A stretch of 64,000 bases of DNA from Lacipirellula parvula (GTDB lineage: Bacteria; Planctomycetota; Planctomycetia; Pirellulales; Lacipirellulaceae), in the NCBI RefSeq assembly GCF_009177095.1, contig NZ_AP021861.1, positions 3,826,501 through 3,890,500 on the forward strand. The letters are read 5' to 3'. Numbering within the stretch: the stretch's first letter is position 1; each line of letters begins with the position of its first letter. Shown here piece by piece: positions 42,217 to 62,164 of the stretch. Under the pieces are notes generated by a model. That model was given only the letters and a program-made list of their open reading frames with translations. It had not been told where the DNA came from and searched no databases. Both the position numbers and the translations under genes were made by a program.

Positions 42217-43605
42217 ATGATCAACACGTTGCGTCCCAGCAAGAAGCACGTTCGCTCGCTCCCCGCCGCCGTCTCCGAGAGCGGCGTCGTCGGACCGGAA
42301 CCGCCGCTGAAGGTTTGCGTCCTCGCCGCTTGTCCCTTCCCCGCCAACCACGGCACGCCTGGCTCGATTCGCGAACTCGTCGAAGCCACCGCCGAGCGCG
42401 GCCACGAAGTGCACGTCGTCACCTACCACATCGGCGAAGAGTTGCCGCTGCGGAACGTTCATCTCCACCGCATTCCCGACTGGACCGGCGAACGCACCGT
42501 CAAGGTCGGTCCGACGAAGTATCGGCCGCTGTACGATTTTCAGATGGTGCTCAAGACGCTGCAGGTGCTGCGGCGGAACAAGGTCGACCTGATCCATGCC
42601 CATGGCTACGAAGCCGCACTCGTGGCCGCCTGCTGCCACCCCTTCGTCCGCAAGCCGATCGTTTACAGCGCCCACAACGCGATGGGCGACGAACTCGCGA
42701 GCTACAACTTCTTCCGCTCGAAGCGGATGGCCAACGGCCTCGCCTGGCTCCTCGACCGTACCGTCCCCCGCATTGGCGATCGCTGCATCCCCCACAGCGT
42801 CAACTTGCAAGAATTCCTCTACGCTCGCGGTCTGGAGAAGCGAACCGAAGCAGTTCTCAACTTCGGCGTCAACTTCGACGCAATGCCGGTCGGCGACCGG
42901 ACGGCGCTTCGCCAAGCATTCAACCTGACCGACGAGCCGGTGATCCTCTACTCGGGCGTCATCGACAAATTCCAGCGCCTCGATTTGCTGCTGGAAGCAA
43001 TGGTGCACGTCCTGCCGCGCTTCCCGCGGGCGAAACTGCTGCTGCTCACCAACGTCCCCAATGCCGAAAACGAAGCCATCCTCCGCGAGCATGCCCGGGC
43101 CCTCGGCATCGAAGACAACGTGATGATGATGGTCCCGCGCTCGCTCGACGACGGCCTCAAGCTGCTGTCGATGTGCGACCTCGCCGTCGTCCCGCGACCC
43201 AAGGCGCCAGGGTTCCCGATCAAGTTGCTTAATTACCTTGCGGCCAAGCGCCCCTGCGTGATGTACGCCAGCTCGTGCAGCCGGCTGTCGCATGGCGAGC
43301 ACGTCTGGCTCGCATCGGAAGACACTCCGAAATCGTTGGGAGACGCCTTGGTGCAGGTTCTCAAGGATGACGCGCTCCGTAATCGGATTGCCGAGGGGGG
43401 CCACCAGTTCGTCCGCGCACGGCACGACCGCCGTGCGGCCGCCGCCCAACTTTGCAACGTGTACCTCGACTTGCTGCGCACGACGCGCCGCTGGAACGAT
43501 ATTGCCGCCCGCCCGGCCCGTGTCGTTCCGAACATCGAACAATCCGACGAACTTGAAGCGTTCGACGGTGAATCCAAGGAGATGCAGGCCAATGCCTACG
43601 CCTAA
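42217..43605 (+). CDS. GT4 glycosyltransferase, first gene of the glycan-lipid cluster
   Basis: The 462-residue protein has the N-terminal VCVLAACPFPANHGTPGSIR and VDLIHAHGYEAALVAACCHP, then VILYSGVIDKFQRLDLLLEA and the donor-site segment PKAPGFPIKLLNYLAAKRPC, where K-L-L-N-Y-L-A replaces the more usual E-A-M-A pattern. GGAG lies about eight bases before the ATG. It belongs to the GT-B fold and acts at the cytoplasmic face. Its end overlaps the next gene by 14 bases (43592-43605), indicating a single transcript. The transferred sugar and the acceptor are unknown. Confidence 0.85.
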   Translation: MINTLRPSKKHVRSLPAAVSESGVVGPEPPLKVCVLAACPFPANHGTPGSIRELVEATAERGHEVHVVTYHIGEELPLRNVHLHRIPDWTGERTVKVGPTKYRPLYDFQMVLKTLQVLRRNKVDLIHAHGYEAALVAACCHPFVRKPIVYSAHNAMGDELASYNFFRSKRMANGLAWLLDRTVPRIGDRCIPHSVNLQEFLYARGLEKRTEAVLNFGVNFDAMPVGDRTALRQAFNLTDEPVILYSGVIDKFQRLDLLLEAMVHVLPRFPRAKLLLLTNVPNAENEAILREHARALGIEDNVMMMVPRSLDDGLKLLSMCDLAVVPRPKAPGFPIKLLNYLAAKRPCVMYASSCSRLSHGEHVWLASEDTPKSLGDALVQVLKDDALRNRIAEGGHQFVRARHDRRAAAAQLCNVYLDLLRTTRRWNDIAARPARVVPNIEQSDELEAFDGESKEMQANAYA

Positions 43606-45283
43606 TTACAAGGTGCTGATCGTCGGCCTCGACGGCGCGACGTTCGACCTGATGCTGCCGTGGATCGAGGAAGGAAAACTCCCGAACCTCGCCCGCATCA
43701 TGCGCAGCGGAGCGAAGAGCCCGCTCGAGTCGACCGTGCCGCCGATCACGCCGTGCGCCTGGTCGAGCTTTATGACGGGCAAGAACCCCGGCAAGCACGG
43801 CCTGTTCGACTTCATCGAGCCCGACGACAACCACGGCTTTAAGTTTACGAACGCCTCCTACCGCGACGGCGAAACATTGTGGGGCTGCCTCAGCCGCCAC
43901 GGCCGCCGCGTCGGCGTCGTCAACGTCCCGATGACGTTCCCGCCGGAACCGGTCAACGGCTTCCTGATCTCGGGCCTCGACACGCCGCACGACCTCAGCG
44001 CGTTCATGTACCCGGTCGAAGTTCGCTCCGAGCTGAAGATGGCGGGCATTAAGTACCGCATCGATCAGCAACATCTGGGCAACATGCGGACCGACGAACG
44101 CCGTCGCGCCCAGCTCGACGACATCTTCGCCTGCGAACGCGATCGCACCACGGCGTTCCAGCTCCTGTCCGAACAACGCCCCTGCGACTTCCGCATGATC
44201 GTCTTCGGATCGACCGACCAAGTGCAGCACCACTTCTGGCACTTCATGGATGCGTCGCACGACAAGCACGATGCCGCCGGCGCCGAGAAGTTCAGCACTG
44301 CCATCCTCGACACCTACGTCCACTGCGACGAACAACTCGGCATCCTCCTCGACGAGTGCGACGACGACACGATCGTCGTCATCATGTCCGACCACGGCTT
44401 CGGCCCGATGTCGAACGTCCGCGTTCGCGTCAATCAGATTCTCGCCGAAGCCGGGCTGCTGAAGTTCGTCGAAAGCTCCGCCCCTGGCAAGCTCAAGCAG
44501 TCGCTCGCCGCGTGGCTCGACCGGATGATTCGCTCGACGCTTTCCTCCGACGCCAAGCGCCGTATCGCCGGCATGCTGCCGCGGCTGCGAACTTGGTTTG
44601 AAACGCTCGACGAGACGCAAATCAACTGGGACGAAACGAGCGCCTACGTCAACGAGGCGTACCGCTCCAGCCCCGCCATTTGGCTCAACCGCCTGCAAGA
44701 TCTGGACGAAGGCGAAGTGGCGGAACTACGCGACCGTATCGAGCAGATCATGCTCTCGCTCGTCGATCCGCAAACGGGCGAACCGGTGATCACCCACTTG
44801 GCCCGCCCCAGCGAGCTCTACCACGGCCCCCATTCCAGCAAGGCGCCCGACCTGCTCCCCGCGTGGTGGACCGACGGGTTCCTGCTCGATCAGAGCATGC
44901 CCGCCGCGGCCGGCTTGCCGAACGTCGAGCGTTCGACCGCGCCGCTCGAGGGAGGCGTCGAGTTCGCCGCCTCGCACCGTCTCGACGGCGTTTTCATGAT
45001 CAGCGGCGGTCCGATCTCGCCCGAATTTTCGTTCTCCGACGCCAAAATTGTCGACGTGACCCCGACCGTCCTGTATTTAATGGGTCTGCCGATTCCCGAC
45101 GACATGGATGGCAAGGTCCTGGTCGAGGCGATTGATTCCGACTTCCTCGCCGCTAACCCGATTCGCTACGAATCGACCGAAGATGGCGCCGTGAGCGAAG
45201 TCGACAACGCCCCGCGCGGGTTCTCGAAAGACGAATCAGAGATGATCGCGCGTCGTCTCCAAGCCTTGGGATACATCCAATAG
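43592..45283 (+). CDS. AlkP-superfamily phosphohydrolase/transferase, copy 1
   Basis: This 563-residue protein lacks a signal peptide and membrane segment and starts MPTPNYKVLIVGLDGATFDL (metal ligand Asp14). WSSFMTGKNPGKHGLFDF carries the nucleophile Thr or Ser around residues 58-62, and VVIMSDHGFGPMSNV the second metal site. It ends RLQALGYIQ. This matches the predicted AlkP-superfamily phosphohydrolase/phosphomutase group seen near glycan genes in several phyla. It likely handles a phosphorylated sugar or lipid head group, or transfers phosphate. AAGGAG precedes the ATG at 43592 by ten bases. A second copy follows at 45319. Confidence 0.85.
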   Translation: MPTPNYKVLIVGLDGATFDLMLPWIEEGKLPNLARIMRSGAKSPLESTVPPITPCAWSSFMTGKNPGKHGLFDFIEPDDNHGFKFTNASYRDGETLWGCLSRHGRRVGVVNVPMTFPPEPVNGFLISGLDTPHDLSAFMYPVEVRSELKMAGIKYRIDQQHLGNMRTDERRRAQLDDIFACERDRTTAFQLLSEQRPCDFRMIVFGSTDQVQHHFWHFMDASHDKHDAAGAEKFSTAILDTYVHCDEQLGILLDECDDDTIVVIMSDHGFGPMSNVRVRVNQILAEAGLLKFVESSAPGKLKQSLAAWLDRMIRSTLSSDAKRRIAGMLPRLRTWFETLDETQINWDETSAYVNEAYRSSPAIWLNRLQDLDEGEVAELRDRIEQIMLSLVDPQTGEPVITHLARPSELYHGPHSSKAPDLLPAWWTDGFLLDQSMPAAAGLPNVERSTAPLEGGVEFAASHRLDGVFMISGGPISPEFSFSDAKIVDVTPTVLYLMGLPIPDDMDGKVLVEAIDSDFLAANPIRYESTEDGAVSEVDNAPRGFSKDESEMIARRLQALGYIQ

Positions 45284-45318
45284 CCATCGCACTCGGCGGC
45301 CCGAGAGGAATTTCAGAT

Positions 45319-47037
45319 ATGAGTCGTGTTTTCATCGTCGGCTGGGATGGCGCCACATTCGATTTGGTCGAACCGTGGATCGCTGAAGGCAAGCTGCCGA
45401 ACATCGCGGAAGTCTATCGCAACGGCGCGCACGGCGAGCTCGCCTCGACGCTGCCGCCGATGACGTTCCCTGCTTGGTCCAGCTTCATGACGGGCAAGAA
45501 CCCTGCGAAGCACGGCATCTACGACTTCACCCGCCAAACCCCCGGCACGTACGACCTTGAGTTCGTCAACGGCGGCAACCGGCGGGCGCCTTCGTTTTGG
45601 AAGCTGCTCAGCGACGCCGATAAACGCGTTATCTCGATCTCCCTCCCGTGCACCTTCCCGCCGGAACCGGTCAACGGCGTCATGCTCAGCGGCTTCGACG
45701 CCGCTGGCCTCGGGGGCAGCAGTTCAAAGCTCGACGCCCGCGGCATGTATCCCCGCAGCATGTACGACGAACTCGACCGCGAACTGGGCGGCCACCCGAT
45801 CGGATCGTTCCCGATCCAAGAAATCAACCAGGGCAGGGCGGAAGCCGCGGTTCAGAAGATCATCGACGTCATCGGCCGCAAAGCCGCGACGGCGAAGTAC
45901 CTTATGCAGAATTACGAATGGGATTGCGCGATGATCCTGTTCGGCGAGTCCGACGGCTCGGCCCACCACTTCTGGAAGTACTGCGACCCCCGCTCGCCGC
46001 AATACACGGCCGAACCTGCCTCGATGCGCGACAGCATCTTGCGGGTCTACCAAGAACTCGATCGCCAACTCGGCGAGCTCAAAGAACTGCTGCCGTACGA
46101 TACGACGCTGATGATGATGTCGGACCACGGTTTCGGCGGCGTCAGCAACGCGGTCGTCTACCCGAACTGCTGGCTCCGCGAACAGGGACAACTCGGCTTC
46201 CGCGGCGGCCTGGCGCGCTGGATGTCGCGGCGGCTCGACGCACTCAAGCTCCGCGCCGTCGCCGTGCTGCCGAACTCCATCCAAAAGTTCCTCTCGCGGT
46301 TCGCCCGCGCTCAGCTCGGCGGCATCGAAGCGAAGGTCCGCTACGGCATCATCGATTGGAGCCAAACGAAGGCCTTCTTCGAAGAGAACCCGTACTACCC
46401 GGCGCTTCGCATCAACCTGAAGGGCCGTCAGCCGCAAGGCACCGTCGAACCCGGCGCCGAGTACGAAGCGCTCCGCACCGAACTGATCACGAAGCTCGAA
46501 GCCTGGCGCCATCCGCAAACGGGCGAGTCGATGGTCGAAAAGGCCTTCCGCCGCGAGGAAGTCTACTCCGGCGCCTGCCTCGACGAAGCGCCAGACATTG
46601 TCGTCAAATGGGCGACGCACCAAAATTACACCTACGCCTTCCGCGTCAGTTCGAAGAGCAAGTCCCTCGCTTGGATCGAGGAGCTCGACCCGCACCGTCA
46701 GGAGAATTCCGCGTTCTTCACCGGCAAGTCGGGAAGCCATCGCGACAACGGAATTTTCTTGGCCGAAGGACCGCAAGTGATTGCGGAGAAGACGGTCGAC
46801 GGAGCCCGCATCATCGACGTGGCGCCAACGATCTTGCACCTCCTTGGGGTACCGACGCCGGCGGACATGGATGGCCGGGCGCTGATCGAAATATTCGAAG
46901 GCGCCGCGGCGACCCCCATGGCAGTTGGAGAGGCTGCCGGCGTCGTCGCCGCCTCGGAAGAGGACGACGCCTCGTACACGGATGATGACAAAGTCGTGAT
47001 CAACGAACGCCTCCGGGCGCTCGGTTACATCGATTAA
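45319..47037 (+). CDS. AlkP-superfamily phosphohydrolase/transferase, copy 2
   Basis: This 572-residue cytoplasmic protein is related to the preceding gene: MSRVFIVGWDGATFDLVEPW (Asp10), WSSFMTGKNPAKHGIYDFTR, TFPPEPVNGVMLSGFDAAGL, LMMMSDHGFGGVSNAVVYP, GSHRDNGIFLAEGPQVIAEK and the end RLRALGYID. The copies differ greatly in their middle part, suggesting different substrates rather than simple redundancy. GAGAGGAA lies before the ATG at 45319, 35 bases after the first copy's stop. Its acidic tail (EEDDASYTDDDK) is absent from copy 1. A role in processing a glycan-lipid intermediate is inferred from context. Confidence 0.85.
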   Translation: MSRVFIVGWDGATFDLVEPWIAEGKLPNIAEVYRNGAHGELASTLPPMTFPAWSSFMTGKNPAKHGIYDFTRQTPGTYDLEFVNGGNRRAPSFWKLLSDADKRVISISLPCTFPPEPVNGVMLSGFDAAGLGGSSSKLDARGMYPRSMYDELDRELGGHPIGSFPIQEINQGRAEAAVQKIIDVIGRKAATAKYLMQNYEWDCAMILFGESDGSAHHFWKYCDPRSPQYTAEPASMRDSILRVYQELDRQLGELKELLPYDTTLMMMSDHGFGGVSNAVVYPNCWLREQGQLGFRGGLARWMSRRLDALKLRAVAVLPNSIQKFLSRFARAQLGGIEAKVRYGIIDWSQTKAFFEENPYYPALRINLKGRQPQGTVEPGAEYEALRTELITKLEAWRHPQTGESMVEKAFRREEVYSGACLDEAPDIVVKWATHQNYTYAFRVSSKSKSLAWIEELDPHRQENSAFFTGKSGSHRDNGIFLAEGPQVIAEKTVDGARIIDVAPTILHLLGVPTPADMDGRALIEIFEGAAATPMAVGEAAGVVAASEEDDASYTDDDKVVINERLRALGYID

Positions 47038-47083
47038 TTCACCGCTGTTCGACGTTCAGTTTCTTCGCTGAGAGTGCCGCCAC

Positions 47084-48664
47084 GTGAGCCGTTCCGTTCC
47101 ACCAACCGCGTCTGATTCGCCGACCGTCGCGCCTGCGCACGAATCGGGTCTCGGCCGCATCGTACGAAACAGCGCGTTCAACGCCGTGGGGACGATCCTC
47201 ATCGTTCCCTCGAACATGCTCGCGCTGTTCGTCATGGCGCAACGGTTGGGCGCGCAGCCCATCGGTACGTTCTTCACGATCTTCTCGATCTCCGCGGTGA
47301 TCCACTGGATCGCCGATGCGGGCACGACCACGGTCCTCACTCGCCACGTCGCCCGCAATCCACAGCGGCTGAAAACGATCATTCCCGAGTCGCTCGGCGT
47401 CCTGTGCGTCGTTTGCTGCGTTTCGACGACGCTGTTCATGCTGGTCGCCGTTCCGTGGATGTCGTTCTTCACCGACCGCGTTTCGTTCGCGGTGGTGATC
47501 GTCGCCGCGTCGGCGATGTGGTCTCGGCACGCTCTCGACTTCGCCGCCAGCGCCCTCCGCGGGCTAGAACGCTTCGAATACGAGAACTTCTCCCGGGTCG
47601 TGCAGACCTGTAGTTTTTGCGTGTTCGTCTGGTTGTGGGTCCACCCGTCGACCGGCGGCGCCCTGGCCGCCTTCATCGCTTACGCCGCGAGCAACGTCAT
47701 TGCCGCGATCATCATCTGGTGGACGCTGCTCACCAAGTGGGACTGCGCCGGCTTCCGCTTGAACCGCGAAATCATCCGGCGCTGGTGGACCGAATCGATT
47801 CCGCTCGGCGCCGGCGACGTCATCCGCCAGTTCCTCATGCAGATGGACACGCTGCTCCTCGCCGCGTTCAAGCCGCAGGCGATCGTCGGCATGTTCAGCA
47901 TCGCCGCCCGGCCGCTGCAGCCGTTGCAGCTGCTGCCGAAGATCATCGTCTCGGTCACGTTCCCGATGCTCAGCCGCGCGGCCCAGGTCGATCTCGCCGC
48001 CGTGAATCGCCTGTTCGTCAAAACGACGAAGATCCTCTGGGCTGCCTCGCTGCCGATCAGCATCGGCCTGAGCATGGCCGCCCAGCCGATCATCCTCGCC
48101 ACTGCCGGCGAAGACTTCATCGATGCGGCCCGCCCGCTCCAGATTCTGATCTGGTCTACCGGCCTGATTTTCATCAACGCCCAACTCCGCTTCGTCCTCA
48201 CCGCACTCGACAGCGAAAAGGCCTACTGGCGGCTTATCTGCTGGACGCTTGCGGTGAAGCTCGGCCTCGAAGCGGCGCTCATCCCGCTTTGGGGCCTCTA
48301 CGGCGCTTGCATTGGCAACATCCTCGGCGAAATCGCGCTCTGCATCGGCGGAGCGCTGGCCCTCCATCGACTCGGCGTCAAATCGCCCAACTGGCTCGAC
48401 TTCCTCCGTCCAGCACCCGCTGCCGTTGCAATGACGCTGATTATGTGGCCCTACGCCGATCACGACGCCTCGCTGCTCAGCGTGATCATCGCCGGCATTG
48501 CCGGCGGCATCGTCTACGCGATCGTGGCGCTGTTCAGCGGCATCGTTCCGTGGTCCGATCTGCAGCGCATCTGGCGCTCGCTTCGTAAACCGGCGATCGT
48601 CGCCAGCCTTGAACCTGCCGCCGTCGTCGCTGTCGCCGAGACAGCCGACGCAATCCCCAACTAA
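47084..48664 (+). CDS. Wzx-like polysaccharide flippase
   Basis: This 526-residue protein has about 12-14 transmembrane segments from IVRNSAFNAVGTILIVPSNM onward. The polysaccharide-synthesis/MATE-like features include TFFTIFSISAVIHWIADAGT, TESIPLGAGDVIRQFLMQMD, FSIAARPLQPLQLLPKIIVS and ILIWSTGLIFINAQLRFVL. It likely moves a lipid-linked glycan across the inner membrane. The GTG at 47084 is used since no ATG fits; GAGAG lies upstream. Its presence between AlkP enzymes and membrane glycosyltransferase genes supports a membrane-based assembly route. Confidence 0.85.
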   Translation: MSRSVPPTASDSPTVAPAHESGLGRIVRNSAFNAVGTILIVPSNMLALFVMAQRLGAQPIGTFFTIFSISAVIHWIADAGTTTVLTRHVARNPQRLKTIIPESLGVLCVVCCVSTTLFMLVAVPWMSFFTDRVSFAVVIVAASAMWSRHALDFAASALRGLERFEYENFSRVVQTCSFCVFVWLWVHPSTGGALAAFIAYAASNVIAAIIIWWTLLTKWDCAGFRLNREIIRRWWTESIPLGAGDVIRQFLMQMDTLLLAAFKPQAIVGMFSIAARPLQPLQLLPKIIVSVTFPMLSRAAQVDLAAVNRLFVKTTKILWAASLPISIGLSMAAQPIILATAGEDFIDAARPLQILIWSTGLIFINAQLRFVLTALDSEKAYWRLICWTLAVKLGLEAALIPLWGLYGACIGNILGEIALCIGGALALHRLGVKSPNWLDFLRPAPAAVAMTLIMWPYADHDASLLSVIIAGIAGGIVYAIVALFSGIVPWSDLQRIWRSLRKPAIVASLEPAAVVAVAETADAIPN

Positions 48665-48745
48665 CCATCTGCTCAGGCACGCGAAAGACACCAACATTTA
48701 GACCCTCCCGGACGCGGGAGCAAAGGATTCTGGAGTATCTCCCTC

Positions 48746-49891
48746 ATGAAGACATTCATCCGTTGGACCAGTGGATTGCTGTTGCTCGGCTGCGCCGTTG
48801 TTCTCATCGGCCTGTGGCAGTTGCGGGCCCGCGACGCGATGGCCGATTGGGATCCCGATGCGGCCCGTCACCGCGGCAAGCCGATCCCCGTCCGCACCAT
48901 CAAAGTGGCGGCCCGCGACTTCGATGAAACGATTGGCGGCACCGCTGTGACGTTCCCGGCCCAATCGGCGACGGTGACCATCCCGCTCCGCTCCTCCTCG
49001 GTGATCGACCGCGAAGTTCTCGACGTCAATTGCGAAGCAGGCGGCGAAGTGAAGAAGGGCGACGTCCTGGTGACGTTCCTCCCCGGGCTGTTCGAGCACA
49101 CCGTCCGTCAGCGCGAAGCCGCCGTCCGCCAAACGACCAAGACGCTCGAAGCCTACAAGGGCCTCAACAAGCGTCAGGCGATCACCGAACTCGAAGTCGC
49201 CGAAGCCGAAGTCGGTTACGAAACGGCTCAGCTCGAACTCGCCATGTCGAAGCGCGACCTTGAACTTTGCAAGATGATCACTCCGATCGACGGCGTCATC
49301 CAGGAAGTCAACGTCGTCCCGCAGATGCGCGTCGGCGACGGCACGATCGTCGCCGTCGTCCACGACCTCGACCCCATCTACGTCCAAATGGACTTCCCGA
49401 TGGAACGGCTCGATTCGCTCCAAGTCGGCCAAACCGCCGAAGTGGAACTCGACGCTTTCTCGCAAGAAACCTTCGAAGCGAAGGTGATCCGCATCGCACC
49501 GATCGTCTCCACGAAGACCCGCGTGCTGCCGATCATGCTCGAGATCCCCAACCCCGGCAATCGCATCAAGGCCGGCATCTCGGGCTTCGCTCGCGTGAAA
49601 TCGATGAAGCCGGGCGCCACCTCGATCCCCGCCGTCGCCCTTATCAAGAAGCAGAAGAAGGCGATGGTCTTCATCCTCGAAGGCGATAAGGCAAAGATTC
49701 GCGAAGTCCGCACCGGCGAAACGATCGGCACGGGCGAAGTCGAGATCCTCGAAGGCCTCGAAATCGGTGACGAGGTCGTCATCTACGGCCACGACTCGCT
49801 GCAAGAAGACGACCTGGTGAACGCCGATTGGCGCGGCTGGACTCGCCGCGGCGAGGGCAATGTTGCTCAAGCCAGTATGTCCGGTTTCTAA
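48746..49891 (+). CDS. HlyD/RND-type membrane-fusion protein
   Basis: The 381-residue protein has an N-terminal membrane anchor (about 7-27; WTSGLLLLGCAVVLIGLWQL) and a biotinyl-lipoyl-like beta region. A helical hairpin (about 120-190; VRQREAAVRQTTKTLEAYKG ... MSKRDLELCKMITPIDGVIQ) and a beta-barrel domain (VYVQMDFPMERLDSLQVGQ-type) follow. These proteins bridge an inner-membrane transporter to an outer-membrane channel. No transporter partner is adjacent; the outer-membrane protein at 58547 and the MacB-like gene at 62165 are the nearest. A small hairpin (48705-48720) lies in the spacer before it. Confidence 0.8.
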   Translation: MKTFIRWTSGLLLLGCAVVLIGLWQLRARDAMADWDPDAARHRGKPIPVRTIKVAARDFDETIGGTAVTFPAQSATVTIPLRSSSVIDREVLDVNCEAGGEVKKGDVLVTFLPGLFEHTVRQREAAVRQTTKTLEAYKGLNKRQAITELEVAEAEVGYETAQLELAMSKRDLELCKMITPIDGVIQEVNVVPQMRVGDGTIVAVVHDLDPIYVQMDFPMERLDSLQVGQTAEVELDAFSQETFEAKVIRIAPIVSTKTRVLPIMLEIPNPGNRIKAGISGFARVKSMKPGATSIPAVALIKKQKKAMVFILEGDKAKIREVRTGETIGTGEVEILEGLEIGDEVVIYGHDSLQEDDLVNADWRGWTRRGEGNVAQASMSGF

Positions 49892-49918
49892 ATCGTCGCT
49901 GCTCGCCCTTCCCGCCGC

Positions 49919-51304
49919 ATGAACTACGTCAAACGATTCTTCATCGCCTGTTGGAGTCTGTACGCCCGGCTATTTAGCTGGTGTGCTGGCGCTGCGCTGT
50001 CGAATCGCGGACTGACGTTCACGGTGCTCGTGACTTGCTTGATTCTGATCACCGGCCCGTGGCTGCGGTCGTCGGTTAGTCGCGACTTCCGCGGCCCCCA
50101 CATCCCGTGGAACAACTCGGCGAGTTCGCGATTCCTGCCGGAGTACGTCGCGAAGGCACCCCGCGAATGGCGCGTCGACAGCATCGCGATCCCGATGCTC
50201 GCCATCGTGCTCGTCGCGATTCCTGTGGCGTTCATTCGTCCGCGGTGGATGCCGCACCTATTCGGGCTGCTGATCGCCGTGAGCATTCCCGCCCTGGCGG
50301 TAACGCTCTGGAACCATCCCGGTCTGTACGAGTTTTTTGAAAGCGAAATCCGCGGTCGCAGCATGCTCCGCACCGTCTACCGGATGGAACATACCGATCT
50401 GATGACCGTCCGCGCGCCCGATCGCATGCAGGCGTTCGGCGGTCAAACCGGCAAGATCGATCTGCTCGCACCGACGCACCCGCTGCTCGTGCCGCTTAAC
50501 TACTGGATGTACGGCCCCTGGCTCGTCGGCGCCGCCATCATGGGCGCCGTGGCGACCAATCGCACCAACTGGCAACGCCGCTTCGCCTACACTGGCGTTT
50601 GGGTCGGCGTCGGCGCCCTGTTCGCGCTCGCCGCCACGTGGCCGCGCTGGGTCGCCGAGTACCACTGGACTCAGGCGGAGCTGCTCGAAGAGCGAAACGA
50701 CTTTGTCGCAGCCGCCGACGCGCTCGAACTTGCCCGCCAGTCGATGCCCCCTCTCGGCTTCACCAAACGCTATTGGGAAGCCCGCGGCCGGCTCGACTAT
50801 CGCCAGCTTGTTCGCAGCCCCTACGCCGCCTACTTTGTCTCCTCCGAGTATCTCGAAGCCGCCGACGTCGATCGCGCTCGCAACGAACTCGCCCCCTTCG
50901 TTGACGCCGACAGCGCCGCCGCGCCGCGTGCCTTACTCGCGGAAATCATGGGCCACACCGCCACCGGCTTCAGCGCCCACGGCAAGCGCGGCGCCGCCGA
51001 AAAAGCGTGGCGCGAAGCCGCCGAAATCGCTCCCTGGAAGCCGAGCTACTGGGTCGCATACGCCGTAACGGTGCTCGGCTCCGCGCCGGAGCGCGCGCCG
51101 GAAATCGAAACTCGCTACCTCGAAGAACTTCGCGACGTCGGCGACTGCTTCGTCGGCAGTGACTTCGCCTCAGCCCTTGGCGACGCCTATTTCGAAAGCG
51201 GCGACTTTACGAGCGCCCGGCGTCTGTACAGCATGGCGATGGATATCTTCCACTTGCCGAAGTACGTCAACCTGCATGCTCAAGAGGGCCGCCTCGGCAT
51301 GTAA
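49919..51304 (+). CDS. Membrane protein with TPR-like C-terminus
   Basis: This 461-residue protein has transmembrane segments at about 32-48, 88-106, 113-131, 192-215 and 222-245. The soluble C-terminal half (about 250-461) is of helical repeats (AELLEERNDFVAAADALELA ... KRGAAEKAWREAAEIAPWKP ... SALGDAYFESGDFTSARRLY), like TPR or Sel1 repeats. It probably acts as a scaffold at the membrane. Its stop (TAA) overlaps the ATG of the GT-C gene by one base, so the two are translationally coupled and may form a complex. No known family was recognised for the membrane part. Confidence 0.65.
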   Translation: MNYVKRFFIACWSLYARLFSWCAGAALSNRGLTFTVLVTCLILITGPWLRSSVSRDFRGPHIPWNNSASSRFLPEYVAKAPREWRVDSIAIPMLAIVLVAIPVAFIRPRWMPHLFGLLIAVSIPALAVTLWNHPGLYEFFESEIRGRSMLRTVYRMEHTDLMTVRAPDRMQAFGGQTGKIDLLAPTHPLLVPLNYWMYGPWLVGAAIMGAVATNRTNWQRRFAYTGVWVGVGALFALAATWPRWVAEYHWTQAELLEERNDFVAAADALELARQSMPPLGFTKRYWEARGRLDYRQLVRSPYAAYFVSSEYLEAADVDRARNELAPFVDADSAAAPRALLAEIMGHTATGFSAHGKRGAAEKAWREAAEIAPWKPSYWVAYAVTVLGSAPERAPEIETRYLEELRDVGDCFVGSDFASALGDAYFESGDFTSARRLYSMAMDIFHLPKYVNLHAQEGRLGM

Positions 51305-54300
51305 TGATGAGCTCGCGCCCTCTCGCTGCACTCCTGTTGGTCGGATTCGCACTCGCCGTCGGCGACTTCGGTTTCCGCACGTTCAATCCGTCGCCCACGC
51401 CGGAGTACATGATCTCCGGCAACGTGCAACCCCTCACGCTGCAAACCGACGACGAACCGAAAAAGCACCTTTACCTCCGTCGCACCTGGCGGCTCACCGA
51501 AGCCCCCGAGCAAGCTTGGATCAAGCTCATCGGCCATGACGTGATCGAGGTCTGGGTCAACGGCCGCCGCGCCGGCTACTCGAAGCCAGTCGGCTTCGGT
51601 CGCAACACTGGCATCGTCATGGACGTCACCCCGCTAATGCACGCGGGGGAAAACAGCATCGCGATCCACGTCGCCCAGCTCGTGCTCGATCGGCCGCCGA
51701 GCGTTTCCATCGAAGGCGAATGCCGTTTCGCCGACGGCGTCGTCCGCGACCTCGGCGACTTCCACGATTGGAAAGCCGCCGGCGTCTATGAACGCAATGG
51801 CCCCTATTGGTTTGAAACCGAGTTCGAAGACAAGCACTGGATCGAACCAACTGCCGGCGAACGCATCGAATGGCGCTGCCAGGTCGACTTCCCCCATCGC
51901 TCGATCACCCACCCGCGCGAAGCGAAGTGGATTTCGCCCACCAGTTCGACGGAAGGCGCCGCTGCGTTCGCCGCCGAGTTCGACGTCCCCGGTACGCCCC
52001 GCGACGGCTGGCTCCGCATCCTCACCAACGGCTCGCAGCGGATCGCGCTCAACGGCAATCTCCTGTCGCGCGATCAACTCGGCCTTGGCACCGAACAATC
52101 GAAGCACGCTCGCGAACTCACGTTCGACGTCAGCCCGCTGCTGCGCCGCGGTAGCAACGTTATTTCCGTGATGGCGGAAACCCCCGGTGAGAAGCCCCGT
52201 CTGCTGGCCGACCTCGAAGCGACGACCGCCGACCTGCACCGCACCTACCTCGCCACTGACGACAGTTGGAGCAGCGCCGCCGGCTACCCCAGCGATTGGC
52301 TCGAACCAGACTTCGCCGCCGCCGAGTGGCAGCAATGCAAACCCGAGATCGGCTACCAAGGCATCCCGCCTCGGTCACTGGTCCGCGAACTCGGCATCCT
52401 CGATCCCACCCGTGCCTTCTGGATCGAGCGCGGCGCCATCCACGCCGCCTGGATTCTCGGCAGCGGTCTCCTCGGCGCCCTCGGCAGCTTGGGCGTGTTC
52501 GCCGCAATGAAAAAATACGTCGCCGCTGCGGAACCGCTTCCCGTCGCACTGCCGTTCCTCCCGCTACTCGTCGGCTCCCTCGCCGCCTGCAGCGGCGCGC
52601 TGATGACCTGGGACTTCCGCTGGGCCGGGCACGATGTTTATCGCCCCGTGTGGCTCTACTCGATCTGGATCGGCGTCGCTGCACAGTGGTTGCTGCTCAT
52701 CGTCCTCATCTCCGTCAAGTCGCTCGCCGATCGCCCCGCGCTGCGCCGTACGTTCAGCTCGCGGGCGATGTGGACCGCCTCAATCATCGGCTGGACGGCG
52801 TTCGGCGTCCTCGCTCTCTGGCTTCGCCTCCGCGACCTCACTGCCGAGCCGATTCACCACGACGAAGTCACCGTCTACGCCTTTACCGAAACCGTCTTCA
52901 CGCAAGGTTTCCCCGGCGGTCAGGTCCATCCCGACATCCCCTTCGGCTACGCCGCGACGAACGAGCTTTGCTACTTCTTCAACGCCATTGCCGAACTCGT
53001 TTTCGACGATCCGCTGCTCGTGATCCGCGTGCCGGCCGTCATTTGGTCGATGCTCACGCTGCTGATCATCGGCTACATGGGTTGGAAGTGGTTCGATGGC
53101 TACGTCGGCGCCGTCGCCGCGGTGTTGTTTGCGATTTCGCCGCACATGATCGGCTTCGCCGACTTCGGTCGCTATCTCTCGCAGGTCCAGTTCTTCAGCT
53201 TGCTGACGATGTACTGCACATACGAAGCCATCCGCGGCACGGGCAAACCGAACCTGCCGATGATGTGGGCCGCCACCATCAGCTTCATCGCGATGTATTT
53301 CAGCTGGGAGGGAACCGGCATGTTCGGCTTCGGCCTGGCGCTCGCCGTTTTCTTCCATCGCCGCCGCCATCTCTACCCGCTGCTCGCGTCGCCGCATCTC
53401 TACATCGCGTCGACGGTGCTTGTCACCTCGGTGATCGCGCAGAACGCCCATCGCATCATGCAGCAGACGCAACGGCTTTGGTACGGCGAAGGAATCAGCT
53501 CGCTCACCATCAAAGCGATGTGGCGATACCCCTTCTTCCAGCATGATTACTTCCTGATCAACTCCGCCTGGACCCGCGACGCATTCCTCCCGATGATCGC
53601 GCTCGCCATCGGGTTCATCCTCACGATCAACCACCGCTGGCGAGCGCCGTTGCGATTCTCGCTCTTCTGCCTCGTGGTGAACGCCGAAATGATGTCGGCG
53701 TTTCTCCCCGTTCGCACGAACCGTTACGCCTGCCACCTCATCGGCATCCTGATGCTGATCGCCGCCGCCGTCGTCGTCGCCGGCGCCGAGGCGCTGCTGA
53801 AGTATCTCCGCTCCACGAAACTCCCCGAAGCCTACCGCTGGTACGCCCAAGCCGTCGCGTTCCTCTCGGTCGCGGTCGCCGTCGCGCTTTGCAGCGGCTG
53901 GACCGTTCGCACTGCTGAAATGACCCGCTACGCCAGCGCCGCCTTCGACGTCAAACAACTTCGCATCCCCGACTGGGACGAGCCGACGAAGTACCTGCAC
54001 GATCATCTGCAAGAAGGCGACGTTGTCATTTCCATCTTCCCGCACACGACGAATTTCAACTTCGTGTTCGACAAAGTGAAGAAGGGCAAAGAAACGCGCA
54101 CCGTCGACTACTGGCTGCAAAGCCGCTTGATCATCCAAGCCACGATCGGCGACAGCACCGAATCGCCCCGCGACCGCCGCAGCGGCGCCATCATGCTCCA
54201 CAACATCGACCAGGTAAAAAAACTGTTCGCCGAGAACGACCGCATCTGGTACTGCACCATGCGGATGGCCCAAGGAAAACTGAACGACGGCGAGGTCTCC

Positions 54301-54444
54301 GAATACCTCCGCCACCACATGGACGTCGTGAGCGAAGATTTTGCGACAGCGCTCATGGTTCGCGACAAGAACCACCGCCCGGCTCCGATTCAAGTGCAAG
54401 AAGACGAGTCGGGACAGATGGCTGCTGAGTACTTCCTCCACTAA
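51304..54444 (+). CDS. GT-C glycosyltransferase with two N-terminal jelly-roll-like domains
   Basis: This 1046-residue protein has an N-terminal signal/anchor (about 5-21). Two beta-sandwich domains, about 40-185 (LTEAPEQAWIKLIGHDVIEV, WVNGRRAGYSKPVGFGRNTG) and 186-365 (ITHPREAKWISPTSSTEGAA, RIALNGNLLSRDQLGLGTEQ), resemble the carbohydrate-binding or rhamnosidase-type jelly rolls. A GT39/ArnT-like membrane enzyme follows, with about 12 helices and an acidic loop, LTAEPIHHDEVTVYAFTE (Asp520, Glu521), likely the catalytic site. A soluble C-terminal part (about 890-1046) ends it. I know no described GT-C with this N-terminus. It probably transfers a lipid-linked sugar to an acceptor on the outer face of the inner membrane. 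Confidence 0.7.
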   Translation: MMSSRPLAALLLVGFALAVGDFGFRTFNPSPTPEYMISGNVQPLTLQTDDEPKKHLYLRRTWRLTEAPEQAWIKLIGHDVIEVWVNGRRAGYSKPVGFGRNTGIVMDVTPLMHAGENSIAIHVAQLVLDRPPSVSIEGECRFADGVVRDLGDFHDWKAAGVYERNGPYWFETEFEDKHWIEPTAGERIEWRCQVDFPHRSITHPREAKWISPTSSTEGAAAFAAEFDVPGTPRDGWLRILTNGSQRIALNGNLLSRDQLGLGTEQSKHARELTFDVSPLLRRGSNVISVMAETPGEKPRLLADLEATTADLHRTYLATDDSWSSAAGYPSDWLEPDFAAAEWQQCKPEIGYQGIPPRSLVRELGILDPTRAFWIERGAIHAAWILGSGLLGALGSLGVFAAMKKYVAAAEPLPVALPFLPLLVGSLAACSGALMTWDFRWAGHDVYRPVWLYSIWIGVAAQWLLLIVLISVKSLADRPALRRTFSSRAMWTASIIGWTAFGVLALWLRLRDLTAEPIHHDEVTVYAFTETVFTQGFPGGQVHPDIPFGYAATNELCYFFNAIAELVFDDPLLVIRVPAVIWSMLTLLIIGYMGWKWFDGYVGAVAAVLFAISPHMIGFADFGRYLSQVQFFSLLTMYCTYEAIRGTGKPNLPMMWAATISFIAMYFSWEGTGMFGFGLALAVFFHRRRHLYPLLASPHLYIASTVLVTSVIAQNAHRIMQQTQRLWYGEGISSLTIKAMWRYPFFQHDYFLINSAWTRDAFLPMIALAIGFILTINHRWRAPLRFSLFCLVVNAEMMSAFLPVRTNRYACHLIGILMLIAAAVVVAGAEALLKYLRSTKLPEAYRWYAQAVAFLSVAVAVALCSGWTVRTAEMTRYASAAFDVKQLRIPDWDEPTKYLHDHLQEGDVVISIFPHTTNFNFVFDKVKKGKETRTVDYWLQSRLIIQATIGDSTESPRDRRSGAIMLHNIDQVKKLFAENDRIWYCTMRMAQGKLNDGEVSEYLRHHMDVVSEDFATALMVRDKNHRPAPIQVQEDESGQMAAEYFLH

Positions 54445-54488
54445 CGGACGCCGAGCGCCCGTGCCGCGTCCGCGCGGCCGAGACGACC

Positions 54489-55541
54489 ATGCGATTCATC
54501 AACGACATCTTCACCGCCCCGGTTGGCGAAGTCTGGACGAACGAACGCGTCGCCCAGGCCTACAACCGCGCGATCGACGCTCTTCCGGCCGAGTCGCAGG
54601 AAGAGGTGCGGGCGTTCGTGAAGTTCCAACTCGTCGGCGAGCGCAGCCGCCGCAGCGTCTTGGCCGATCCGCTCGCACTCAGCGACTTCCGCTCGCACGC
54701 CGAAGCCTACGAACGAGGCGCCGACGCGGCGCTCGACCAACTCGCCGCGCAAATCCGCCCCGCCGCCGAGGCCGCCGACGTCCAGTTCGACGCCCTGATC
54801 ACCACCACCTCCACCGGCAACGTCATGCCCGGCCTCAGCTACCGCCTGGCCGAACGCCTCGGCCCAGCCGTCCGCCGCGACAGCATGATGGTCGACCTCG
54901 CCAACGTCGGCTGTACCGGCAGCAGCAAGGCGCTCAATCTGGCCCGCTCGCTCGGCCCCGAGTTCCGCCACATCCTCATCGCCGCCGTCGAGCTACCGAC
55001 AACGCTCATCAACGTCCACACCGCCGATCTCGACACCTGGCAAGGCAACTGCACGTTCGGCGACGGCGCCGCGGCCCTCTGGGTTTCCGACAACGTCGAA
55101 TGCGGCAGCACTGCTCTCTCACTCGAAGAGTTCCAGTACCAGCAGTTCGCCGACACCGGCCTCGACCTCATCCGCTGGGGCTACAGCGACTATTTCGGCT
55201 TCCGCCTCCGCGATCACGCGACGTTCGAAAAAGACGTCAAGCAAACCGTCGCCGAGGCGCTGCTGCAGGCCGAATCCGGCTGGCGCGACGAACCCCGCTG
55301 GGCGATCCATCCCGCCGGCATCGCGTTGTTGATGCGGCTGTCGCGGGAGCTCAAAATGCCGAAGGATTCCATCCAGCCCTCGGTCGCCCACTATCGTGAA
55401 AACTCCAACATGAGCAGCGTCAGCATCCTGTTCGTGTTGAAAGAACTCGCCGCCGCCGCGGAAGTTGGCTCTGCCGTCAACTTGCTCACCATGGGCGCCG
55501 GCTTCAACGTCATTTACGGCAGAGTGCGCCGCGTGCGCTAG
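54489..55541 (+). CDS. Type III polyketide synthase-like enzyme (KAS III/chalcone synthase fold)
   Basis: This 350-residue protein has the size and triad of type III PKS: Cys142 in LANVGCTGSSKALNLARSL, His274 in RWAIHPAGIALLMRL and Asn307 in HYRENSNMSSVSILFVL. Further family signs are TTTSTGNVMPGLSYRLAERL, GNCTFGDGAAALWVSDN and the end TMGAGFNVIYG. KAS III enzymes have related residues, so the two cannot be fully separated by eye; the NMSS motif favours type III PKS. It would extend an acyl starter with malonyl units. It is 8 bases ahead of an acyl carrier protein, which suggests that the starter or product is ACP-bound. Confidence 0.75.
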   Translation: MRFINDIFTAPVGEVWTNERVAQAYNRAIDALPAESQEEVRAFVKFQLVGERSRRSVLADPLALSDFRSHAEAYERGADAALDQLAAQIRPAAEAADVQFDALITTTSTGNVMPGLSYRLAERLGPAVRRDSMMVDLANVGCTGSSKALNLARSLGPEFRHILIAAVELPTTLINVHTADLDTWQGNCTFGDGAAALWVSDNVECGSTALSLEEFQYQQFADTGLDLIRWGYSDYFGFRLRDHATFEKDVKQTVAEALLQAESGWRDEPRWAIHPAGIALLMRLSRELKMPKDSIQPSVAHYRENSNMSSVSILFVLKELAAAAEVGSAVNLLTMGAGFNVIYGRVRRVR

Positions 55542-55549
55542 GAGTCCCC

Positions 55550-55807
55550 GTGGATCGAGACGCCATCCTGGCAACGATGAAAGCGAACTTCACCGCCGCG
55601 GAAGCCCCGGGGACGATCGAAGAATTCGCGAACACGAAGGCCGTCGACCTCTTCCAGGAGAGCATCGACGTCATCAACTTCTTGTTTTACCTCGAAGACG
55701 AGCTCGGCCCGAAAATCGACGCCTCGCAGCTCGGCCCCGCGATGGCGAACATGACGTTCGGCGAGCTGGCCGACGAACTCAACCGCGTTCTCGCACCGCA
55801 AGCGTAA
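55550..55807 (+). CDS. Acyl carrier protein
   Basis: This 85-residue acidic protein has the four-helix ACP pattern and the motif VDLFQESIDVINFLFYLEDE, with Ser38 the expected attachment site of phosphopantetheine. The following LGPKIDASQ and FGELADELNRVLA complete the fold. AGGAG lies about five bases before a GTG start at 55550. It follows the PKS-like gene by eight bases and precedes the acyltransferase-GT fusion by 18, so all three are on one transcript. It is not next to the fatty-acid synthesis genes one would expect of the housekeeping ACP, so it is likely dedicated to this pathway. Confidence 0.8.
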   Translation: MDRDAILATMKANFTAAEAPGTIEEFANTKAVDLFQESIDVINFLFYLEDELGPKIDASQLGPAMANMTFGELADELNRVLAPQA

Positions 55808-55825
55808 GGGCCCCTCGCCCCGCGC

Positions 55826-58321
55826 ATGAACAACGACCACGAATCCGCAGACGACCCAACCGCGAAGGCCACTGCAGTGAACGCGAACGTAGAAACACAC
55901 CCGACGCTGGCCGACAGCGTCCCCGCGCCGCATTCCGCCGCCGATGCCATGTCGCCGCGCAAAGCAGGCTTAGTCGCCCGTTGCCGCAAGAGCGCTGCCA
56001 AAACCCGCGAAGCGCTGCAAACGGTCGGCCTCAGCGCCGCGCTCTGGATGCTCTACGTGCCGCATCATGTGATGCTCCGCGCGCTCGGCCCGCGCTGGGG
56101 CATGCTCTGGGTCCGCTGCGCAGCGAACATCCACTGGCTCCTCACCTTCGTCGGCGCCCAGCGTTCCGCCCGCGAAGCGATCGCGCGGATGCACCCCTTC
56201 TTCAGCGTCAACGTCTCCGTCTCGCAGATTCTGCGCCGCCACCTGCTGCTCAAGCACGAATGCTTCGCCCGCGTCCGCGTCTTCAGCCTCCACGCCGGCG
56301 ACGGTCGCGACGCCGACATGCAGTGGCAATGTAGCCCCGAAAGCGCCGCCGCGCTCCCCGGCGCCGAGCGCGAACGCGGCCTCGTGATCGTCGGCTTCCA
56401 CTTCAATTTCTTCCAAACGTTTGCCGCGGGCCTCGCCAAATTCTTCCCCGGCGAGAATCTCGTCCAGCTTCGCTACCGCACGTCGCGCTGCGTCGAAAGC
56501 GCCACGTCGCCGATCGTCCAACTCGCCCTCAAGAAGGCGATGGAAGCCGACCGCCGCGCCGGCGCCAACGTCTTTTACATCGACGACATCGAGGCGATCA
56601 TCCAGCTCTACCGCTTGCTGCGGCAACGCGGCGTCGTGGCCGTCACCGCCGATGGCGGCGCCGCGGGCGATTTCGTCGACGTTCCCTTCTTCGACGGCAC
56701 GTTCCGCGTCCCCAGCGGTTGGGCCAAGCTTGCCGCCGGCACTAAGTCCGACGTGCTACTCATTTGCGACAAGGAACTCAACGGCAACGCCCGCGAAGGC
56801 CTCTTCTACAACCATGTGAAGTGCGCCGACGCCAGCGACGAAACGGCCTTCAACGCCATCGCCGAGGCGATCCGCGTTCTTGAGTACCGCATCAAAGAAG
56901 AACCATGGGGCTGGCACCCCTGGCAACGGCTTCGCGTCGACGTCGACGAACAGGGCATTCGCCGTTACTCGCTCAAGCAGTATGGGTTCGACGAAGGAAC
57001 CCGCATGCAGAAGAAGGCATCGAGCGATCCCGCCGATCAGCAGCGGATCCGCAAGCTCGACCTCGCCGCGGCGCCGAAGCAAACCGTCGAACGCCACGTC
57101 GCGGTGATCGCCAACTCGCTCCCGCCGTACCGCGTCCAACTCCACGAAAAAATCGTCGCCGCCTACCCGCAGGTCGAGCTCTGGACCGTCACGACCCACA
57201 GCAACGCCTACCGTCGCTGGGGCGGCCTGATGCCCCCCGAGTCGATCCGCGCCGTCGAGTTCGGTCGCGGCGAACCGACGAACGAGCAACCGATGATGCG
57301 GTTCTCGTTCCGCGAATGGCGCAAGGGGGGCCGCATCATCCGCTGGCTGAAGGAACACCGCATCGACACGGTGCTGATCCAGGGCTGCGGCGACATGGGC
57401 CGCCTGCGGATCATCCGTTGGTGCAAGCGCAACAACGTGGAGTGCTTCCTCACCGGCGACTTTAACATCTGCAGCGACAACCACCGCCCACTCAAACGCC
57501 TGCTGAAGCGCGCCGTCTACAGCCGCGCCGTCAACTGGTCGACCGGCCTGATGCCGTGCGGCGAACATGGCCTCGCACTGCTCCACCGCTACGGCGGCGG
57601 GTCGAAGCCGTCGCACATGTGGCCGTTCATCCCCGACGTGACGCTGTTTCAGAATCCGTCCGCTGAGCGAATCGACGCTATCCGCGAAAGATTCAATCTC
57701 CCCGCCGAGCGCCGCCGCATCATCTTCTCGGCTCGGATGATGAACGCCAAACGCCCCGACCTCGCCGTCCGCGCATTCCTGGCGGTCGCCGCCCTCCGCC
57801 CCGACTGGGACATGATCATGGTCGGCGACGGCCCGCTCCGCGCCGAGGTCGAGCAACTGGTTCCCGAGCACCTCCGCGCCCGCCTCATTTGGACCGGCTT
57901 CGTCAACGACATGCAAGACCTTGCGGCGCTCTACGCCTGCAGCGACTTGATGCTGCTCCCCAGCGGCCACGAACCGTGGGGCGTCGTCGTCGTCGAAGCC
58001 GCCGCCGCTGGCCTCGCGATCGTCGCCTCCGACGTCGTCGGCGCCGCGCCGGAACTCGTCCGCAGCGAACTCAACGGCGAGCTGTTCCCGACAGGGAATC
58101 TCGGCGCACTCAAGCAGGCGCTGCTCAAAGCGACCGAACCGCAGCGCATCGACGCGCTGAAGGCCGGCTCGCAGCAGGTCTTCCAAGAATGGTTCGCCGC
58201 CTGCGACCCCGTAGCCAATTTTGGCCAAGCGCTCGGCGTCGCCGCCTCGACGGCAATCGCCCCCATTGCAGTCAACTCGCTGCGCCGCATCGAGGCGCCC
58301 ATGACCATTCCGACCACTTAG
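55826..58321 (+). CDS. LpxL-like acyltransferase fused to GT4 glycosyltransferase
   Basis: The N-terminal ~400 residues match the LpxL/HtrB lipid A acyltransferase family: IVGFHFNFFQTFAAGLAKFF (His192), VVAVTADGGAAGDFVDVPFF, FRVPSGWAKLAAGTKSDVLL and the terminal PWGWHPWQRL at about 360-369. The usual H-x4-D/E is H-x4-Q here (Gln197). Residues ~420-831 form a GT4 glycosyltransferase: HVAVIANSLPPYRVQLHEKI, FSARMMNAKRPDLAVRAFLA, and PSGHEPWGVVVVEAAAAGLA with the E-x7-E motif. LpxL-like enzymes take acyl groups from ACP, so the adjacent ACP fits. The protein could join acylation and glycosylation of one membrane substrate. I know of no described fusion of this type. Confidence 0.75.
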   Translation: MNNDHESADDPTAKATAVNANVETHPTLADSVPAPHSAADAMSPRKAGLVARCRKSAAKTREALQTVGLSAALWMLYVPHHVMLRALGPRWGMLWVRCAANIHWLLTFVGAQRSAREAIARMHPFFSVNVSVSQILRRHLLLKHECFARVRVFSLHAGDGRDADMQWQCSPESAAALPGAERERGLVIVGFHFNFFQTFAAGLAKFFPGENLVQLRYRTSRCVESATSPIVQLALKKAMEADRRAGANVFYIDDIEAIIQLYRLLRQRGVVAVTADGGAAGDFVDVPFFDGTFRVPSGWAKLAAGTKSDVLLICDKELNGNAREGLFYNHVKCADASDETAFNAIAEAIRVLEYRIKEEPWGWHPWQRLRVDVDEQGIRRYSLKQYGFDEGTRMQKKASSDPADQQRIRKLDLAAAPKQTVERHVAVIANSLPPYRVQLHEKIVAAYPQVELWTVTTHSNAYRRWGGLMPPESIRAVEFGRGEPTNEQPMMRFSFREWRKGGRIIRWLKEHRIDTVLIQGCGDMGRLRIIRWCKRNNVECFLTGDFNICSDNHRPLKRLLKRAVYSRAVNWSTGLMPCGEHGLALLHRYGGGSKPSHMWPFIPDVTLFQNPSAERIDAIRERFNLPAERRRIIFSARMMNAKRPDLAVRAFLAVAALRPDWDMIMVGDGPLRAEVEQLVPEHLRARLIWTGFVNDMQDLAALYACSDLMLLPSGHEPWGVVVVEAAAAGLAIVASDVVGAAPELVRSELNGELFPTGNLGALKQALLKATEPQRIDALKAGSQQVFQEWFAACDPVANFGQALGVAASTAIAPIAVNSLRRIEAPMTIPTT

Positions 58322-58546
58322 CGCACTTTCCATCCGGATATCACTCTGGCCCTCCCCCAACGCTAGCATCCGCCATGTCGATTGCATCGACTTTGCCGGC
58401 CATGCCGCCCGCACTGGCGCCCCTGTAGCAGTCGTGACGAATATTCCGTTACGCAACGAGTCGTCGTTGCTCCGACGCTTCCGCGTCCCCGCTTCGACGC
58501 CCACGCGTTCCCGCCGAATACTCGCCCGCCACAGGTCAGCCCGACG

Positions 58547-60169: not shown

Positions 60170-60222
60170 GCCGCGTTTGCCCGCAATCGCGAGCTGCCAG
60201 CATGCCCCTCGTCTGGCAATAG

Positions 60223-60746: not shown

Positions 60747-60815
60747 GCGACTCGACGTAGCTCCCGCCGACCACCAGATTCGCCGCGATCGACATCGAAG
60801 CGATTGGAATCATCA

Positions 60816-62144: not shown

Positions 62145-62164
62145 CGCCGAGCCGGAGATTCTGC

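Follow-up and report, generated by a model that had tools for sequence, protein, structure and literature searches.

A type III polyketide synthase-like gene and its acyl carrier protein inside a glycan operon of Lacipirellula parvula

Background

What is a gene resembling type III polyketide synthases (PKSs) doing inside an operon for glycan assembly? The locus that raises this question is a row of ten genes (42217..58321) in a stretch of 64,000 nucleotides of the freshwater planctomycete Lacipirellula parvula (assembly GCF_009177095.1, positions 3,826,501 to 3,890,500 of contig NZ_AP021861.1). This whole stretch, which lies within a single contig of 6,922,258 bases, is called the window below, and coordinates are positions in it. 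An earlier note on this DNA had taken the ten genes for one glycan-lipid assembly system with a type III PKS-like enzyme and its own acyl carrier protein (ACP). We find that they are not one conserved ten-gene glycan-lipid system: they are a glycan operon with a genus-specific add-on. We use KAS as a shorthand for the type III PKS-like ketosynthase gene (54489..55541, forward strand) and call "fusion" the gene which encodes an LPLAT-like domain joined to a GT4 domain (55826..58321). Among the relatives compared, G003, G004 and G005 belong to the same genus, G016 and G025 to other genera of the family, and G290 lies elsewhere in the class.

Results

Gene order in relatives

The ten open reading frames (ORFs) are all present and tightly spaced, with intergenic gaps of -14 to +81 bp, and all ten are collinear in G003 and G004 (61-85% identity). 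Collinearity at this identity is more than chance, and the reading of the row as ten closely spaced genes is borne out, the family scans also backing the labels. The first seven genes (GT4, two AlkP, Wzx-like, adaptor, TPR and GT-C) form a glycan operon which also exists in two other genera of the family and, in less complete form, in other parts of the class. When 397 genomes of the class were searched with the GT-C protein, five had a match at E<=1e-10: the genome itself, G016, G025, G290 and, partially, G357.

Three of these clusters count against a single pathway from acyl chain to exported glycan. In G016 the LPLAT-GT4 fusion comes straight after the seven core genes, KAS and ACP both being absent. 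What follows the core in G025 is a GT4 frame (468 codons) devoid of the N-terminal (LPLAT-like) domain, again without KAS or ACP, and neither of these two genomes has a KAS-family member elsewhere (best matches 29%). Of the seven core genes G290 retains all but one AlkP, and it has neither KAS, nor ACP, nor the acyltransferase-like domain. Since the core occurs in all three without the PKS-like gene and ACP, we describe the locus as a composite and not as a single unit. The system proposed in the earlier note thus stands in part: the PKS-like, ACP and fusion genes are linked, and the order of the ten genes is kept in G003 and G004, but the clusters without PKS-like gene and ACP in G016, and without the acyltransferase-like domain as well in G025 and G290, are partly what the note had itself named as speaking against it.

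In G005 the end of the GT-C gene is followed in turn by an ACP (59%) and the fusion (57%). KAS and a second ACP lie in this genome on a separate contig, between ORFs that we read from their sequence as MBL-fold-like and ABC ATPase-like. This position outside the cluster is a further point against a single pathway, but it is uncertain, because the contig measures 3 kb and G005 is a bin which is 82% complete and 4% contaminated. Within the genus, the full-length fusion and the family KAS are both found in 4/6 genomes and neither in the other two (68% and 92% complete). The clusters form a graded series: GT4 alone in G025, the LPLAT-like/GT4 fusion in G016, ACP and fusion in G005, and KAS, ACP and fusion in Lacipirellula. 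This series suggests an order of gain from GT4 to LPLAT-GT4, then ACP, then KAS, although the genomes are few and losses may also have produced it.

The synthase

Both chalcone synthase domains pass their cut-offs of 27 in KAS (PF00195, 30.5 bits; PF02797, 34.5 bits), and its closest PDB sequences are chalcone synthases (best E 1e-17). The Cys-His-Asn triad C142/H274/N307 is present in 14/14 family members, aligned with that of chalcone synthase. We compared an AlphaFold2 (AF2) model of KAS (pLDDT 84) with the PDB: 49 of the 50 best listed matches are named as type III PKSs, with TM-scores up to 0.80, and the remaining one (7f08, "K8") has an uninformative title. Like chalcone synthase, PKS11/PKS18 and the planctomycete alkylresorcinol synthases, KAS thus has the triad, the predicted fold and a Phe at the site which we take to be F215 of chalcone synthase. 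Unlike them it has an N-terminal stretch of its own, a long branch, an identity of 16-24% to the listed fold matches, and MGAGF in place of the GFGPG-like C-terminal loop, for which the two other type III PKSs of the genome (which has three type III PKS-like genes, KAS included) have AFGPG. This loop is usual in type III PKSs without strictly defining them; owing to its absence we write "type III PKS-like".

In a tree of 50 rows, a starred branch of length 7.7 has the 15 rows of the KAS family on one side, apart from the three FabH-type rows, which include E. coli FabH and the FabH encoded elsewhere in the L. parvula genome. As the tree was made by a quick method and long branches meet in it, we use it solely for this statement. 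KAS belongs to a deep-branching type III PKS-like family and is not a FabH. The earlier note had called the enzyme type III PKS-like, which triad, domains and fold uphold in spite of the deviating loop, and the grouping with housekeeping fatty-acid genes, which it had named as a possible objection, is not seen in the tree.

Another possible synthase-acyltransferase pair exists in this genome, where the true LpxL gene adjoins a second, divergent KAS III gene (G000:C1:2494537-2496919; L113, L120).

The carrier protein and its pairing with KAS

The ACP gene (55550..55807, forward strand) stands between KAS and the fusion; the gaps are 44 bp from GT-C to KAS, 8 bp from KAS to ACP and 18 bp from ACP to the fusion. 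Ser38, the predicted phosphopantetheine site, is present in 13/13 aligned family ACPs. The ACP matches PF00550 with 16.9 bits (E 0.008), below the cut-off of 20.8, and 6/13 members match at E<=0.1. The family profile supports the assignment: it matches ACPs of the PDB (best E 6.9e-6), and the same profile deprived of the genus rows matches the window ACP at 5e-19.

An ACP directly follows KAS in 4/4 loci of the genus. Outside the genus it is downstream or fused in 11 of the 12 loci read (ten from the scan described below, plus L111 and L112; L077 and L111 are near-copies), which brings the pairing to 15/16 loci. At the sole miss, L075, the sequence ends about 300 bases past KAS. By contrast, the family ACP profile found an ACP in 0/33 fetched flanks of ordinary type III PKS loci, 27 of them genomic with about 1.5 kb or less per side and six of them plasmid with 0.6 kb, or 3 kb for one. 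This control profile did recover the five genus ACPs and E. coli AcpP (E 0.0013-0.0018). The "own ACP" which the earlier note gave to the PKS-like enzyme is borne out by this pairing. An ACP also adjoins the fusion in four genomes, including G005, where no KAS is alongside.

The other neighbours vary outside the genus (tRNA synthetase, TamA/TamB, a hydrolase, a pyridoxal-phosphate enzyme). At the cyanobacterial locus, the gene immediately downstream of KAS (L076:3339-5003) encodes an ACP joined to a BioF/serine-palmitoyltransferase-like enzyme. In a KSB1 metagenome-assembled genome (MAG; L074), the KAS-ACP pair lies near Wzi, a WbaP-like transferase, GT4, a SIS isomerase and a formyltransferase-like gene. 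A toroid-fold-like enzyme and that formyltransferase-like gene follow the pair there. Because G005 keeps an ACP next to the fusion with no KAS there, and KAS elsewhere has an ACP and mostly no glycan genes in view, we regard the ACP as the hinge between two modules.

Distribution of the KAS family

KAS orthologues at 70-100% identity are present in 4/6 genomes of the genus and in 0/53 other relatives, where matches are near 30% or lacking. A 14-row profile at E<=1e-50 found the family in 1/343 genomes of Planctomycetota (our own), in 1/244 of Cyanobacteriota (the centre genome), and in 3/201 of the order of Methylotuvimicrobium (M. buryatense), the centre genome included. A scan of genome contigs from 84,980 species yielded 13 loci, ten of which are outside the genus at 48-55% identity (best segment); as it relied on two short peptide patterns, further loci may exist. 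By their record titles, from which the taxa of MAG loci are taken, the loci outside the genus fall in six further phyla: KSB1, Methylococcales/Gammaproteobacteria, Leptolyngbyaceae, Actinomycetota, Zixibacteriota, Acidobacteriota and an unspecified proteobacterium are named. The label "Actinomycetota" of L081 is doubtful, since this locus carries PSCyt2/PSD1 genes, which we take to be usual in planctomycetes. Of the 86 plasmid records matched by KAS, none reaches 60% identity or covers 80% of the query, and most of the 25 listed carry a type III PKS annotation. We found no compositional trace of recent transfer, the G+C content at third codon positions being 0.86 for KAS and 0.83 for ACP against 0.79-0.87.

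The fusion

The LPLAT/LpxL-like domain is encoded by 55826..57088 (about residues 50-400, a boundary set by eye) and the GT4 domain by 57089..58321 (PF00534, 98.6 bits, residues 617-771). Aligned by hhalign with a profile of E. coli LpxL, LpxM and LpxP and the LpxL of this genome, the first domain gives P 8.2e-5 and a probability of 61%, with the catalytic His aligned; an unrelated profile gives 3% and P 0.014. Its His143 and Asp227 (domain numbering) are present in 5/5 members, aligned with the His and Asp of LpxL (compare LpxM D192 and VexE D532).

All five members match PF03279 at E<=0.1 (best 1.9e-6). The assignment is weak, however: the window copy falls just below the Pfam cut-off, PDB sequences gave one chance-level match for the domain alone and none for its profile, and an AF2 model built from three rows has a pLDDT of 34. 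The acid of the HX4(D/E) motif is replaced in 5/5 (Q, Q, Q, L, Q; the window copy reads HX4Q), whereas the LpxL encoded elsewhere in the genome has HLGNFE. Ordinarily such a replacement would speak against activity: changing the corresponding E137 of LpxL to Ala costs 3000-fold, as reported in PMC6286764. According to PMC9597891, however, VexE of the Vi antigen pathway carries Tyr at that site and is yet active with acyl-ACP on UDP-GlcNAc; VexE requires its His and is much weakened without the distal Asp. As VexE works without the HX4 acid and the equivalent residues His143 and Asp227 are invariant in the five members, we call the domain LPLAT-like, not an LpxL, and possibly active.

Among 297 genomes of the class searched with the fusion, 30 match at E<=1e-20; the listed matches other than our own all start at residue 397 or later, hence in GT4 only. 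A stand-alone homologue of the fused GT4 occupies the equivalent place in G025. A stand-alone GT4 paralogue (40%) is also found at G000:C1:1167473-1168645 (L096), with similar genes in several family members.

The core genes and their surroundings

The operon opens with the GT4 glycosyltransferase (42217..43605; PF00534, 65 bits, and PF13439), kept in G003, G004, G016, G025 and G290; all ten genes are on the forward strand. Two AlkP-superfamily type I phosphodiesterases follow. For the first (43592..45283; PF01663, 132 bits; 67-82% identity in G003, G004, G016 and G025) the start is 43592 and not the 43292 of the longer ORF; the second (45319..47037; PF01663, 128 bits) is the sole AlkP retained in G290 (54%). 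The Wzx-like flippase (47084..48664; PF01943) is 31-76% identical, and the RND-type periplasmic adaptor or membrane-fusion protein (48746..49891; TIGR01730, 166.7 bits, cut-off 94.9) is kept, in the same five relatives. Next come a membrane and TPR protein (49919..51304; PF07719 (TPR_2) above its cut-off with 30.6 bits; three transmembrane segments in a simple hydropathy scan) and a GT-C-like membrane protein with a rhamnosidase-type N-terminal domain (51304..54444; PF08531 above its cut-off with 36.7 bits, PMT_2 below with 18.4). The latter has about 10 hydrophobic segments beyond the N-terminal one according to hydropathy, and its relatives are 34-74% identical. The labels LpxL-like, ACP and GT-C come from matches below Pfam cut-offs; LpxL-like and GT-C are the weakest of the ten.

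Outside the row, a sulfotransferase gene (40646..41233, reverse strand; PF13469, 41.9 bits) is divergent from the first GT4. It keeps this position in G003, G004, G016 and G025 (66-75% identity), four of the five relatives read on that side; for the fifth, G290, the 7.7 kb ahead of the cluster showed no such gene. Beside it in G003 and G004, as here, is a divergent pair of GH42-like genes (38443-39495, reverse, and 39631-40575, forward) with about one-third mutual identity; a 26% relative of their proteins is found inside the G290 glycan cluster (L064:12946-14121). Farther off, 36201-38423 encodes a glucose/sorbosone dehydrogenase-like protein with weak dockerin and PEP-CTERM matches. The OEP, MarR, adaptor and MacB genes downstream (58382-64000) were rejected as parts of the cluster, there being no homologues beside it in G003 and G004. 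They encode a TolC-like protein, a MarR regulator, an adaptor and a MacB-like ABC transporter, and resemble a separate efflux operon. No Rfam match above the gathering score was found anywhere in the window.

Discussion

What, then, would these genes do together? The reading we prefer, to which we give nearly an even chance, is that a glycan assembly and export operon of the Lacipirellula family has received an acyl-modification module stepwise, and that a carrier-bound chain feeds an acyl-sugar step. KAS would condense an acyl starter with malonyl units, and the chain would be passed to Ser38 of the ACP paired with KAS, or kept there, in thioester linkage. From the ACP it would be moved by the LPLAT-like domain onto a sugar, either a nucleotide sugar or one in a lipid-linked glycan, and the fused GT4 domain would add the acyl-sugar to the growing glycan, as may be compared with VexE and the GT4 TviE of the Vi antigen pathway. 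Wzx would flip the product, the GT-C protein would add sugars outside, and the adaptor and TPR proteins would assist export. We infer all these reactions and substrates, as well as the acylated, exported glycan which would result from them. In favour of this reading we count the collinearity in three congeners, the graded series, the joint presence or absence of fusion and KAS in the genus, the KAS-ACP pairing, the glycan genes near the KSB1 pair, the precedent of VexE, and the BioF/serine-palmitoyltransferase-like partner at the cyanobacterial locus, an enzyme which likewise uses acyl thioesters. Against it, besides the points already given, stand the following. Although the Wzx flippase of a Wzx/Wzy-type pathway is present (PF01943, 84.5 bits), no Wzy, initiating phosphoglycosyl transferase or PCP/OPX was found among the ten genes at E<=0.01, the search being confined to them, and the family scans of the same genes revealed no outer-membrane exporter. 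Outside the genus, glycan genes were seen near KAS at 1/12 loci only, that of KSB1, among the selected neighbours scanned at all loci but L112.

The pairing can be looked at in other ways. KAS and ACP could form a self-standing two-gene module which travels horizontally, makes something with no relation to the glycan, and has simply landed in the operon. The family is indeed rare and scattered in the surveys above, the gene contexts differ among loci, and the G005 pair is on another contig; but the set is kept in three congeners, between GT-C and the fusion and with these short gaps, G005 keeps a separate ACP directly before the fusion, and a second association with a glycan locus exists in KSB1. 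We hold this view to be rather improbable. Another view grants KAS a role in the pathway as an acyl-CoA-to-ACP acyltransferase or a single-step condenser priming the ACP; the LPLAT-like domain would then move an acyl chain of an ordinary kind, short or branched. ChlB3 is one example of the known KSIII-like acyltransferases (PMC9573744), and a constant ACP partner is odd for a type III PKS, since these enzymes generally do not involve an ACP (PMC6274091). We hold this view to be unlikely, if still worth keeping in mind, as the triad Asn in 14/14 fits condensation and the nearest folds of the model are those of type III PKSs.

Doubt may also fall on the far end of the pathway: the LPLAT-like domain may be inactive, or served by housekeeping acyl-ACP, and KAS and ACP a later, separate acquisition. 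The missing HX4 acid, the fusion of G016 with neither KAS nor ACP in its cluster and the normal LpxL of the genome agree with this, yet His143 and Asp227 are invariant, VexE functions without the acid (PMC9597891), and an ACP is beside the fusion in four genomes, so that we think it improbable. As to a housekeeping FabH paralogue, to which the weak, below-cut-off ACP_syn_III matches of KAS might point, we rejected it on the tree placement and on the presence of the genome's own FabH elsewhere; the best PDB matches, which are type III PKSs, leave it scarcely credible.

The usual picture of type III PKSs is one of CoA substrates and no ACP, and the gene pairing in 15/16 loci points away from it for KAS. 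Exceptions to the no-carrier rule exist according to PMC6274091 and PMC8086630: germicidin synthase, SCO7671 and ArsB/ArsC are capable of using acyl-ACP, and CylI takes its chain from an ACP-bearing type I PKS. KAS resembles them as a type III PKS linked to a carrier protein. The carriers of ArsB/C and CylI, however, are part of the supplying system (fatty acid synthesis or a type I PKS), whereas for KAS the small ACP is the only constant neighbour that we found. KAS differs as well from the planctomycete type III PKS genes described in PMC10896814, 58 of 96 of which pair with a methyltransferase or oxidoreductase. The preferred reading finds its nearest parallel in VexE and TviE (PMC9597891), where one polysaccharide pathway combines a GT4, TPR repeats and an LPLAT devoid of the HX4(D/E) acid, and where ACP-dependent sugar acylation is carried out by an LPLAT encoded in a capsule locus. 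In VexE, on the other hand, the fusion partner is TPR instead of GT4, the ACP used in its assays was that of E. coli, and its pathway is one that exports via an ABC transporter and for which the available text of that paper mentions no PKS-like gene. A serine palmitoyltransferase with a dedicated ACP (PMC9386255) is comparable in that the ACP hands an acyl chain to a transferase, which recalls the cyanobacterial ACP-oxoamine synthase fusion; the partner of that ACP is an acyl-CoA synthetase, and the portion of the paper available describes no PKS-like one.

A 2024 paper (PMC10896814) reports that 2/96 planctomycete type III PKSs are outliers clustering with no characterised enzyme, and that they come from the two species which carry three type III PKS genes, L. 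parvula PX69 and L. limnantheis I41. The L. parvula outlier is almost certainly the KAS protein. In the main text of that paper, as available, "glycosyltransferase" is absent and "acyl carrier protein" occurs solely in a general sentence. Neither an ACP-paired type III PKS family nor a type III PKS in a polysaccharide operon was found described in search listings of the open PMC literature. A bolder proposal, possible in our opinion but distinctly tentative, is that a deep, unrecognised branch of type III PKSs works on a small ACP of its own, that the two genes have passed together from phylum to phylum, and that in Lacipirellula they have become part of a polysaccharide operon whose LPLAT-GT4 fusion transfers their product to the glycan, yielding a polyketide-tailed surface polysaccharide.

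The present comparison gives a first genomic context to the outlier enzyme left unexplained in PMC10896814. A branch which nearly always comes with an ACP of its own would offer a tractable way to test the no-carrier rule, with two proteins in vitro, and the graded clusters of this family show how a surface-glycan operon may acquire a step of acyl modification.

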